Assembly (NCBI GenBank): GCA_003696605.1
Contig: RFGV01000163.1
Coordinates: 1-32,091, forward strand
Reading direction: 5' to 3'
Length of the DNA stretch: 32,091 bases
DNA from: Chloroflexota bacterium
Lineage (GTDB): Bacteria; Chloroflexota; Anaerolineae; Promineifilales; Promineifilaceae
The position numbers and the translations under genes are program-made. This document shows, one piece after another, positions 7,149 to 10,967 of the stretch. Position 1 is the stretch's first letter. Every line of letters begins with the position of its first letter. The notes beneath the pieces are model-generated. The model worked only from the letters and a program-made list of their open reading frames with translations. It had not been told where the DNA came from and made no database searches.

Positions 7149-7199
7149 TGCAGCAGGGTAGTTATGTGTCGCGGACAATTTAATACTGCAAACGGCCGT

Positions 7200-7430
7200 C
7201 TGGGAGAGCATTCCATTTTTTAACCATGTTTTCTTCGTCTGACATGGAATCGCCGAAGGGGCAAACCGATTTTACGGTGAAACTCTCAGGCAAAAGGACC
7301 GGACGACCGGGTAACTCTGGAAAGCTGTCATTCCTTCCCCTCCTTCCTTTAACCAAATCTGCAATGACAGCACCGAAGGGGCAAGCTAATTGTGCAAATT
7401 AGCGAATCTCTCAGGTCCATGACAGAGGAT
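7200..7430 (+). promoter_or_regulatory. Tandem glycine riboswitch
   Basis: Two glycine aptamers in series. Aptamer 1 has GGGAGAG (7202-7208), a P3-type stem formed by ATTCCA (7210-7215) and TGGAAT (7245-7250), the conserved CGCCGAAGGGGCAA (7251-7264), then ACTCTCAGGCAAAAGGACCG and the closing ACTCTGG. Aptamer 2 repeats the core as CACCGAAGGGGCAA from about 7371, with AATCTCTCAGGT and GACAGAGG at the 3' side. It sits directly before a terminator and gcvH-gcvP. The known role of this class is to turn on glycine breakdown when glycine is plentiful. An ACGGCCGT copy abuts its 5' edge (7192-7199). Confidence 0.93.
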
Positions 7431-7514: not shown

Positions 7515-7907
7515 ATGAGCCACAATATTCCAGCCGACTTGCGTTATACAAAAGATGATGAATGGGTCAGAGTTGAGGGCGATGAAGTGGTGGTAGGCAT
7601 CACAGATTACGCCCAGGACGCACTGTCTGATATCGTGTACCTGGAACTGCCTAATGCAGGCGACTTTTTTGGCATAGGCGAAGTATTTGGTGTGGTGGAA
7701 TCGGTAAAAGCCGCCGCCGATTTGTATATGCCTGTGTCAGGTGATGTTGTCGCCGTCAATGAAGCGTTGATTGATACCCCAGAATTAATAAATGAAGACC
7801 CATATGGGGCAGCGTGGATGATTCGGGTGAAGATGAGTGAACCGGAACAGTTGGACGAGCTGATGGACGCAGAGGCTTACCGGGCACATTGTGAGGCACG
7901 CGGGTAG
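7515..7907 (+). CDS. gcvH: Glycine cleavage system H protein
   Basis: 130 residues. This lipoyl carrier shuttles the aminomethyl group between the P, T and L proteins. The lipoylation site is Lys 65 in VVESVKAAADLYMP. Flanking family features are the N-terminal LRYTKDDEWVRVEGDEVVVGITDYA-type beta domain and GAAWMIRVKMSEP near the end. A strong AGGAGG (7501-7506) lies eight bases before the ATG. It is first in the operon after the glycine riboswitch and is followed by gcvP after 141 bases. gcvT, which usually completes the system, is not within the window. Confidence 0.97.
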   Translation: MSHNIPADLRYTKDDEWVRVEGDEVVVGITDYAQDALSDIVYLELPNAGDFFGIGEVFGVVESVKAAADLYMPVSGDVVAVNEALIDTPELINEDPYGAAWMIRVKMSEPEQLDELMDAEAYRAHCEARG

Positions 7908-7963
7908 CCAGGTGGCGTTCAGCTTCTGTCCGGGGGTTGATAGATGGATATAGTGGTGTGACA

Positions 7964-7991
7964 ACGGCCGTTTCTGCCTGATTACGGCCGT
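7964..7991. repeat. Paired ACGGCCGT elements between gcvH and gcvP
   Basis: Two copies of the palindrome (7964-7971 and 7984-7991) stand 20 bases apart in the 141-base non-coding gap. The flanks differ strikingly: 7911-7960 has about 21 G and 6 C, whereas 7992-8041 has about 4 G and 27 C. Confidence 0.9.
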
Positions 7992-8048
7992 TTCCTCCCC
8001 TATCTCACCCCACTCATCTCCCCATCCCCTGCCCACTGGAGAGGACAG

Positions 8049-10967
8049 ATGACCACTTTTGCACAAGCCCCACAAACAAACCTGCAACACAATTACAACC
8101 GTCGGCTCCTACACGGCGCCGACCAATTTATAAACCGGCATCTCGGCCCTCGTGAAAGCGAAATCGCCGAAATGTTGGCCCAAATGGGACTCCCCTCACT
8201 CGACGCCCTCATAGATGAAGCCGTCCCGGCCAATATCCGTATGAGCGGCCAACTTAATCTGCCCACCCCCCGCTCCGAAACCGCCCTCCTGGCCGAGTTA
8301 CGCGAACTGGCCGCCCAAAACAAATTATACCATTCCTTTATTGGCATGGGATTCTATCGCACCATCACCCCACCTGTTATCCAACGCAACATTCTCGAAA
8401 ATCCCGGCTGGTACACCCAATACACCCCCTACCAGGCCGAAATTGCCCAGGGACGTCTGGAAGCCCTGCTCAACTTCCAGACCATGATTTGTGACCTGAC
8501 CGGTATGGAATTGGCCAATGCCTCCCTCCTGGACGAAGGATCGGCCGCAGCTGAAGCCATGACCATGTGCTGGCGTTCCCGTCCACGCAATTCCCAGGCC
8601 AATACCTTCTTTGTGTCCGAGCGCTGTCACCCGCACGTCATTGCTGTGGTGCAAACCCGTGCTGAACCATTAGGCATCAACGTTGTTGTTGGCAATCACG
8701 AAACAATCTCCTTTGCAGATGTTTTCGGTGTGTTGGTGCAATATCCCACCACAGATGGGGATGTATTGGACTACGCCCCATTGTGCGAAAAGGCACACGA
8801 GGCTGGCGCGATGGTTGTGGTATCGGCCGATTTGCTGTCCCTGACACTCCTCCGCCCACCGGGTGAATTTGGTGCAGATGTGGTGGTAGGCAATAGCCAG
8901 CGTTTTGGTGTGCCCATGGGTTTTGGTGGCCCACATGCCGCCTTTATGGCGACCAAAGACGCTTTCAAGCGACAAATGCCGGGTCGCCTCGTGGGTGTTT
9001 CAGTAGATGCAACGGGGAAACCGGCGTTGCGACTGGCTTTGCAAACTCGTGAACAACATATCCGCCGGGAAAAAGCCACCAGTAATATTTGCACGGCGCA
9101 GGTATTGCTGGCAATTATGGCTTCGATGTATGCGGTGTATCATGGGCCTGAAGGTTTGCGCCGCATCGCCCAGCGAGTTCGTCTGCTTACGGCCGTTTTG
9201 GCGACGGCATTGCAGGAGTTAGGCTACACGGTCAATGATCAGCCTGTTTTCGATACGCTTAAGGTGCAAAACGGCCGTTTCTCCCCCCAAGAACTCATCC
9301 AACGCGCCCACCAACACCAGATCAACCTGCGCCAATATGACGACGCTGTCGGCATCTCCCTCGATGAAGCCACCACCCTCGACGAACTGCAAACCCTTCT
9401 TACTGTTTTTGGTGCAGCCAACAACCAATTCGACCTGGAAGCCCTGGCCGACCAGATAAACATCACTTACCAGCCTCCCCACCAACGAACCAGCGACTAC
9501 CTCACCCATCCCGTTTTCAATAGCTACCACTCCGAAACAGAGATGCTGCGCTACATCCACCGCTTACAAAAACGGGACCTCTCCCTGGCTCAATCCATGA
9601 TTCCGCTCGGCTCCTGCACCATGAAGCTAAATCCCACAGCGGCGATGCTCCCCATTAGCTATCCAGAATTCAGCCAACTACACCCGTTTGTACCCGCCGA
9701 CCAGGCCCAAGGATACCATGAACTGTTCCGCCGCCTGGAAACATGGCTCAAAGAAATCACCGGATTCACGGCCGTTTCCCTCCAACCCAACGCCGGTTCT
9801 CAAGGCGAATATACCGGCATGCTCGTCATCCGTGCTTACCACAAATCACGCGGCGAAGGACACCGAAATATCTGCCTCATCCCCAGTTCAGCCCATGGCA
9901 CCAACCCCGCCAGCGCCACCATGGCCGGCATGAAAGTCGTTGTGGTTGCCTGCGACACAAACGGCAACATAGACGTTGACGATCTGCGCCAAAAAGCAGA
10001 ACAACACCGAGATAACCTTGCCGCCTTGATGATTACCTACCCCTCCACCCATGGCGTCTTCGAAGCGGCCGTGAAGGAAATCTGCCAGATTGTACACGAC
10101 AACGGTGGGCAAGTATATCTGGATGGCGCAAACATGAACGCAATGGTGGGGCTGGTGCGCCCGGCAGAGCTGGGCGCAGATGTATGCCATCTGAACCTGC
10201 ACAAAACCTTTAGCATCCCCCACGGCGGTGGCGGTCCCGGCATGGGCCCCATCTGCGTGGCAGCACACCTGGCCCCATTCCTGCCAGGCCATCCTGTGGG
10301 CTCCAACGTAGGTGGAGAACAGGCAATTGGCCCTGTTTGCTCTGGTCCTTGGGGTAGCGCCAGTATTCTGCCTATCTCTTACGCTTATATCGCCATGCTG
10401 GGGAGCGAAGGTGTTACAGAAGCCAGTAAAATCGCTATCCTGAATGCCAATTATGTGGCTCATCGGCTAGATGCTTACTTCCCGGTCTTGTATAAGGGAC
10501 AAAACGGCCGTGTGGCTCACGAATGTATTGTAGATTTGCGTCCGGCCAAAGAGCGCAGCGGCATTACTGTGTTCGATGTAGCCAAACGACTGATGGACTA
10601 CGGCTTCCATGCACCTACAGTTTCCTGGCCGGTTATCGGCACGCTGATGATTGAGCCGACCGAAAGCGAGTCGAAGGCGGAGCTAGACCGGTTCTGTGAT
10701 GCGCTCATTCGGATTCACGGGGAAATTGAGGCGGTGGCATCTGGGCGCTACGATCGGGAACAAAACCCACTGACAGGCGCACCACATACGGCTGAAGTGC
10801 TCACGGCTGATTCCTGGGAACGGCCGTATTCCCGACAAGAAGCTGCTTACCCTGCCCCCTGGCTACATGAATCCAAATTCTGGCCTTACGTCTCTCGCAT
10901 AGACGACGTATACGGCGATCGGCATCTCGTCTGTACCTGCATCCCCATCGAAGCCTACGCCGACTAA
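8049..10967 (+). CDS. gcvP: Glycine dehydrogenase (decarboxylating), single-chain P protein
   Basis: 972 residues, the fused one-chain form rather than gcvPA/gcvPB. It decarboxylates glycine with PLP and passes the aminomethyl group to GcvH. The N-terminal half begins [16 protein letters not shown] and carries HSFIGMGFY. The C-terminal half carries the PLP-binding Lys 719 in [18 protein letters not shown] and the Gly-rich stretch after it, with [12 protein letters not shown] near 518. Ribosome binding site GGAGAGGA (8038-8045), ATG at 8049. The gene holds five ACGGCCGT copies (9189, 9271, 9768, 10504, 10820). At 9271 its base composition switches sharply to C-rich with no frame change. It ends at a shared terminator facing tyrS. 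Confidence 0.98.

Follow-up and report, generated by a model that had tools for sequence, protein, structure and literature searches.

A highly iterated palindrome in a Promineifilum-like Chloroflexota genome anchors a local, mirror-symmetric G-to-C strand asymmetry

The window (the whole 32,091-nucleotide stretch of DNA that was analysed) carries gcvH, which encodes the 130-aa glycine cleavage system H protein (7515..7907, + strand), followed on the same strand by gcvP (972 aa, 8049..10967). ORFs were called mechanically; gcvH owes its name to the earlier note and to homologues, present in 47 of 52 family genomes, while gcvP was assigned with the help of relatives. Between the end of gcvH at 7907 and the start of gcvP at 8049 lies a gap of 141 bases, and in it are two exact, unstranded matches to the octamer ACGGCCGT, at 7964..7971 and 7984..7991, 20 bases apart from start to start; gap and spacing are as first described. 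The 56-nt 5' flank (7908..7963, + strand) is G-rich by base count (G21 C9 A10 T16), and the 57-nt 3' flank (7992..8048, + strand) is C-rich (C28 T12 A10 G7). The initial description of this right part as almost pure pyrimidine holds for its first ~40 nt but not for the whole 57 nt, which include ten A and seven G. When the left-minus-right difference in G-C was computed over 55-base flanks, the two copies gave 34 and 32, while random window positions had a mean of 0 (sd 8.5) and reached these values in only 0.07% and 0.16% of cases. The switch from G-rich to C-rich across the gap is therefore real, being matched by fewer than 0.2% of random window positions.

Upstream of gcvH, at 7191-7427 of the window, lies a tandem glycine riboswitch with two Rfam RF00504 matches (61 and 39.7 bits), and a further copy of the octamer (7192-7199) sits right where the first aptamer match begins. 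Alignment was attempted between genera, and the gcvH-gcvP gaps proved not to be homologous across them. In the orthologous gaps of relatives (L106, L108, L121, L122, L127, and L129), unrelated long inverted repeats follow just after the gcvH stop; these consist of short tandem units that differ between genera, examples being CAGTGAACAGT... with ...ACTGTTCACTG and AATCGGTAAACGGT... with ACCGATTACCG.

The octamer is by no means confined to the gap. The window holds 50 exact copies between 882 and 31990 against 0.5 (0.49) expected, with starts at 882, 1042, 1437, 2094, 2348, 3494, 3530, 3596, 4004, 4265, 5010, 5767, 7192, 7964, 7984, 9189, 9271, 9768, 10504, 10820, 11411, 12839, 12963, 14056, 15315, 15620, 16019, 16791, 17699, 19771, 21154, 21274, 21700, 21874, 22113, 22511, 23136, 24005, 24206, 24875, 27819, 27983, 29172, 29264, 29803, 30225, 30414, 30842, 31383, and 31983. 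The 4.92-Mb source genome, a metagenome-assembled genome of 705 contigs with some stretches given as N, of which ~300 kb was sampled for the skew measurements, contains 5,641 copies (~1,147/Mb) against 201 of a reversed control. Within the sample, 147 of 156 copies lie in ORFs. One-base variants in the window numbered 15 over the 6 outer variants and 5 over the 18 inner ones, and the nearest bases around the copies extend the motif to AACGGCCGTT. By GcvP, the closest named relative is a Promineifilum sp. metagenome-assembled genome at 68% identity. Among the family genomes, many carry thousands of ACGGCCGT copies (up to 13,708 in 6.9 Mb) and others few, and in genomes poor in this octamer other palindromes were abundant: TCGGCCGA at 1,280/Mb (G007), GCGGCCGC at 1,353/Mb (G014), and TGCCGGCA at 848/Mb (G011). 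The core CGGCCG is enriched in most family genomes, whether or not the outer bases are fixed.

Highly iterated palindromes (HIPs) are known from cyanobacteria as GC-rich palindromic octamers with ~1,000-2,000 copies per Mb, mostly inside genes, whose one-base deviations are biased to the first or last nucleotide and which are substituted by other HIPs in some relatives (Elhai 2015, PMC4390886). Because of its abundance, its palindromy, its pattern of one-base variants and its replacement among relatives, ACGGCCGT is the HIP of this Promineifilum-like genome. It resembles HIP1 (GCGATCGC) and the alternate HIPs of cyanobacteria in all of these respects, in its density and in its mostly genic location; it differs from HIP1 in sequence and in phylum. 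A literature search found no paper linking HIPs with Chloroflexi, and for this phylum the papers searched contain no earlier report of a HIP. No comparable palindrome was seen among 80 loci surveyed from other phyla. As a separate observation, four family genomes (G021, G034, G060, and G061) contain a dispersed ~60-base repeat (L156, about 730-800) in dozens of copies, mostly of >90% identity and on both strands.

To see what surrounds a copy in general, base composition was averaged over ACGGCCGT copies, and the sequence proved rich in G 5' of a copy and rich in C 3' of it. Of the 50 window copies, 43 had this sign, and the mean was 13.4 (55-base flanks), while the largest mean among 2,000 random sets of 50 positions was 4.0. 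Over the ~300 kb of source genome, the left-minus-right difference in G-C at 10-200 bases was 0.071 against -0.001 (sd 0.0027) for a circular-shift null, and the flank effect was replicated in 173 kb of other contigs of this genome. An additive regression, in which all neighbouring copies contribute, gave an effect per copy of 0.131 at 0-10 bases, 0.082 at 60-100, 0.051 (se 0.004) at 200-300, 0.026 at 400-600, and 0.015 (se 0.003) at 800-1200, with ~0 beyond (standard errors were 0.003-0.007 and came, as elsewhere, from bootstraps or block jackknives). Since the per-copy effects are additive, the skew between copies takes a sawtooth form: in inter-copy intervals of 1.2-2.5 kb, GC skew stood at -0.285 just behind a copy and had risen to +0.285 in front of the following one. 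Comparison of the two sides by ordinary least squares showed equal and opposite effects within single contigs of 32-100 kb, as in the window (+0.134/-0.122 at 10-30 bases). In relatives, the effect was similar near the copy, weaker beyond ~30 bases and detectable to ~600 bases. A weak excess of T over A accompanied the G excess on the same strand and was clear at longer range only in the source genome. Each ACGGCCGT copy thus anchors a local, mirror-symmetric asymmetry in which, going 3'-ward from the palindrome on either strand, C is in excess and G is depleted, with a decay over ~1 kb; the switch from G to C between gcvH and gcvP is one case of this genome-wide effect. It shares with replication-associated GC skew the asymmetry of G and C between strands, the peak at neutral sites and a weak excess of T over A farther out, but it reverses at each palindrome, over hundreds of bases and independently of replication direction.

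The asymmetry in the source genome was seen in intergenic DNA, in both gene orientations and at all codon positions. Per copy, fourfold-degenerate sites shifted by 0.27 at 10-30 bases and by 0.041 (se 0.008) at 800-1200, compared with 0.067 and 0.005 for the first two codon positions. Over the stretch 10-50 bases 3' of a copy, C made up 0.416 and G 0.159 of the fourfold sites, and the G+C content there (0.576) was close to that at 400-800 bases (0.542); with G+C content nearly constant, the change is mainly one of G against C. A protein or codon cause is ruled out by the strength of the effect at fourfold sites, by its presence in intergenic DNA and by its occurrence in both gene orientations, and the proposal that the asymmetry arises at the nucleotide level and not from protein constraint is borne out on the same grounds. 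Extended inverted repeats around the copies were also sought, and the flanks showed no excess complementarity, so structure formation is not the cause.

How far the effect depends on the full octamer was assessed with related and unrelated palindromes. The TCGGCCGA, GCGGCCGC, and TGCCGGCA palindromes of relatives each showed the same polarity of switch around their own copies. Cores with other outer bases had little or no effect in relatives (e.g., -0.035 vs -0.268 for the octamer at 0-10 bases in G062), which excludes CGGCCG alone as the cause, and a reduced one in the source genome (-0.11 vs -0.26, and, for CGGCCG alone, 0.028 vs 0.089 for the octamer); genomes with mixed outer bases, when pooled, gave -0.04 at 0-10 bases and -0.02 at 10-30. 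Six genomes (G023, G003, G005, G025, G074, and G017; L177, L185, L178, L189, L186, and L187) are strongly enriched in CGGCCG but favour no outer base strongly and have hardly any asymmetry in the flanks; core enrichment is thus separable from the state of octamer plus skew. Other palindromic hexamers away from HIPs showed no asymmetry. Around 377 HIP1 sites in four cyanobacterial plasmids, a weak effect of the same sign was measured within 30 bases (-0.10 and -0.065), with little beyond, whereas that of ACGGCCGT is strong and extends to ~1.2 kb. The GATC control in these plasmids gave -0.056 and -0.026, again with the same sign and over the first 30 bases, so some minor share of the near effect may be common to palindromes of this kind. 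A weak A-T effect of ~3 standard errors was also noted at 400-800 bases from HIP1 in cyanobacterial plasmids (L171, L192-L195, and L324-L326). Skew is not mentioned in Elhai 2015 (PMC4390886), and no description of palindrome-centred skew was found in the literature search.

The earlier note had named two outcomes that would speak against a role of the palindromes, namely the same G-to-C change in relatives that lack them or an asymmetry older than they are. Because the gap could not be aligned between genera, the comparison was made in coding DNA, on a codon alignment of the family's gcvP (loci L293-L322). At gcvP positions with a palindrome, the skew in successive bins to 200 bases was -0.28, -0.16, -0.05, -0.11, and -0.06. 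The same positions without a palindrome gave -0.08, -0.01, +0.03, -0.03, and +0.01 in HIP-rich genomes and -0.09, +0.03, +0.06, -0.02, and 0.00 in HIP-poor ones, and at 10-30 bases (-0.01/+0.03 vs -0.16) neither of the two outcomes was observed. By this test, the asymmetry appears to be neither older than nor independent of the palindrome. In pairs of genomes at 77-84% identity with the octamer in only one member, C-versus-G differences favoured C 3' of the palindrome by 25:16 at 0-10 bases and by 45:31 at 10-30, and within 30 bases the octamer-less genome still had roughly two thirds of the skew. Such partial skew would be expected if the asymmetry builds up and decays slowly. From composition and from this modest contrast at 77-84% identity, we infer that the direction of change is from G to C. 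Some HIP positions in gcvP are common to up to 16 other family genomes and others are unique to one, and the copies probably differ widely in age.

We considered several other readings of the pair and of the skew. The earlier note had suggested that the paired copies form an RNA hairpin that adjusts gcvH versus gcvP expression, and the two copies are indeed able to pair, the 141-nt gap folding to -49.9 kcal/mol. This fold is not exceptional (z = -1.7; 7 of 200 shuffles are as stable), the flanks of a copy complement each other no more than their composition predicts, and relatives' gaps hold no such pair, G013 having two copies near the start of the gcvP reading frame instead. Nor do the paired copies have a special status: a 20-base spacing is expected by chance at this copy density, with one gap of 16-23 bases between successive copies observed and 1.4 expected among the 156 copies of the source genome. 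No intrinsic terminator was found in the gap, which likewise lacks the stable conserved hairpin, the U tract or the compensatory pairing that would place it in the terminator or RNA hairpin class, and we regard a hairpin acting on these two genes as hardly credible. The palindromes might instead sit at skew changes that already existed, at gene boundaries, transcription-unit ends or shifts in codon use, without causing them. Skew alone cannot separate cause from consequence, and the octamer-less members of the genome pairs keep much of it, but so many copies lie inside ORFs in both orientations, the gcvP positions without a palindrome are so free of skew beyond 10 bases, and other 6-mer palindromes and the bare core have so little effect that this reading is very improbable. 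Much the same, or a shade less, can be said for palindromes as preferred starts of Okazaki fragments or as sites of another event that depends on replication direction: a strand that starts at the palindrome and grows 3'-ward would have the right polarity, but one-sided effects are predicted for each replichore. Within contigs the two flanks show effects of the same size and opposite sign, so replication direction is not the cause.

Two further explanations are better placed, although each seems to us unlikely. If the palindrome is bound by a protein (a factor for the nucleoid, for segregation or for repair) that favours G-rich DNA to one side and C-rich DNA to the other, the flanks would be under selection, which agrees with the shift of the nearest 10-30 bases at codon positions 1 and 2 and with the lengthening of the motif to AACGGCCGTT. 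The effect nevertheless reaches ~1.2 kb, decays smoothly, adds up between neighbours and is ~4x larger at fourfold sites than at the first two codon positions, and selection on distant synonymous sites is unlikely; a selected binding context could nonetheless account for the bases closest to the palindrome. The other explanation, to which we would give a similarly small chance, makes the palindrome a bidirectional Chi-like site at which RecBCD/AddAB-type enzymes coming from a break change their activity, the 3' single-stranded tail that ends there then being damaged or repaired to leave the skew. Here the polarity fits exactly, as the G-rich strand has its 3' end at the palindrome, and a range of up to ~1 kb is also as expected; like Chi, ACGGCCGT is an iterated GC-rich octamer, with about one copy per kb. 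Known Chi sites have an orientation and are not palindromes, whereas ACGGCCGT is an exact, unoriented palindrome with equal effects on both sides. Moreover, no PDDEXK_1 protein of AddA, AddB, or RecB size (~1,100 residues) was found in the incomplete assemblies of G000, G062, G065, and G018, all of which have palindrome and skew and contain only PDDEXK_1 proteins of ~190-310 residues, while G001, G031, and G019 have ~1,100-residue ones; several carriers of ACGGCCGT are thus without nucleases of this size, which argues against a conventional Chi system, and other enzyme types may be present.

The explanation that we consider the best, and to which we give about an even chance, is that the palindrome is a recurrent site of nicks or breaks, and that a strand removed and rebuilt 3'-ward from it leaves G-to-C substitutions behind. 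A nick or double-strand break at the palindrome would give DNA repair or recombination a sequence-specific point of entry. The strand that has its 5' end there would be excised and resynthesised 3'-ward; its partner, ending 3' at the same point, would be left exposed. As tracts would begin at the palindrome and end at variable distances, the effect would decay. In the measured geometry, C is enriched on the strand that has its 5' end at the palindrome and G on the partner that has its 3' end there, a geometry shared by excision with resynthesis that starts at a nick and by 5'-to-3' resection that starts at a break. Bacterial MutS may overlook C.C mispairs more readily than G.G. The net G-to-C bias on the rebuilt strand could come from C.C mispairs of resynthesis that escape mismatch repair more than G.G, with G+C little changed, or from cytosine damage in the exposed strand. 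In yeast, C-C mispairs are not always recognised by repair (PMC3422593). The strong first ~30 bases, where codon positions 1 and 2 are affected too, could reflect a selected binding context rather than this nick or break mechanism.

Candidates for the enzymes were sought among the genomes. MutL is encoded in each of the 22 family genomes and also in G036 and G040, G049 alone being without it; being in HIP-poor genomes too, it explains nothing by itself. No member of the MutH family was found in 24 genomes, nor did any sequence-specific nickase turn up. HIPs as a class come with a methyltransferase that recognises part of the sequence, and one D12 member reads GGCC (Elhai 2015, PMC4390886). Unlike the cyanobacterial HIPs, ACGGCCGT has no core-specific C-methyltransferase identified in the Chloroflexota genomes checked (G000, G062, and G065): PF00145 methyltransferases were absent from these three and from G001 and G018, and PF01555 gave only weak partial matches in G000, G062, and G065. 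Neither an m5C methyltransferase nor a full-length AddAB/RecB was found in the source genome, and the absence of such an enzyme from several HIP-rich genomes speaks against a link to m5C methylation. A MethyltransfD12 (Dam-like) protein is conserved, its family occurring in HIP-poor genomes as well; in G000 and G065 it is named Dam family (TIGR00571), and the best solved relative of the G000 protein is DpnM.

We hypothesize, somewhat more tentatively than for the nick or break mechanism itself, that HIPs are fixed, genome-wide entry points from which a putative sequence-directed nicking or breaking system repeatedly excises and resynthesises one strand outward, the gradients being the footprint of HIP function. 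If this is true, the genome would be divided into sub-kilobase units, each with its own gradient of strand composition. The function of HIPs has been an open question since 1995, and a gradient around each copy recasts it as that of a directional DNA process with measurable range and polarity. The gradient is tied to the exact octamer, is present at neutral sites and recurs with different palindromes in sister genera. A short motif tied in this way to base composition over a kilobase bears on skew-based origin finding, on the analysis of codon use and on molecular dating.
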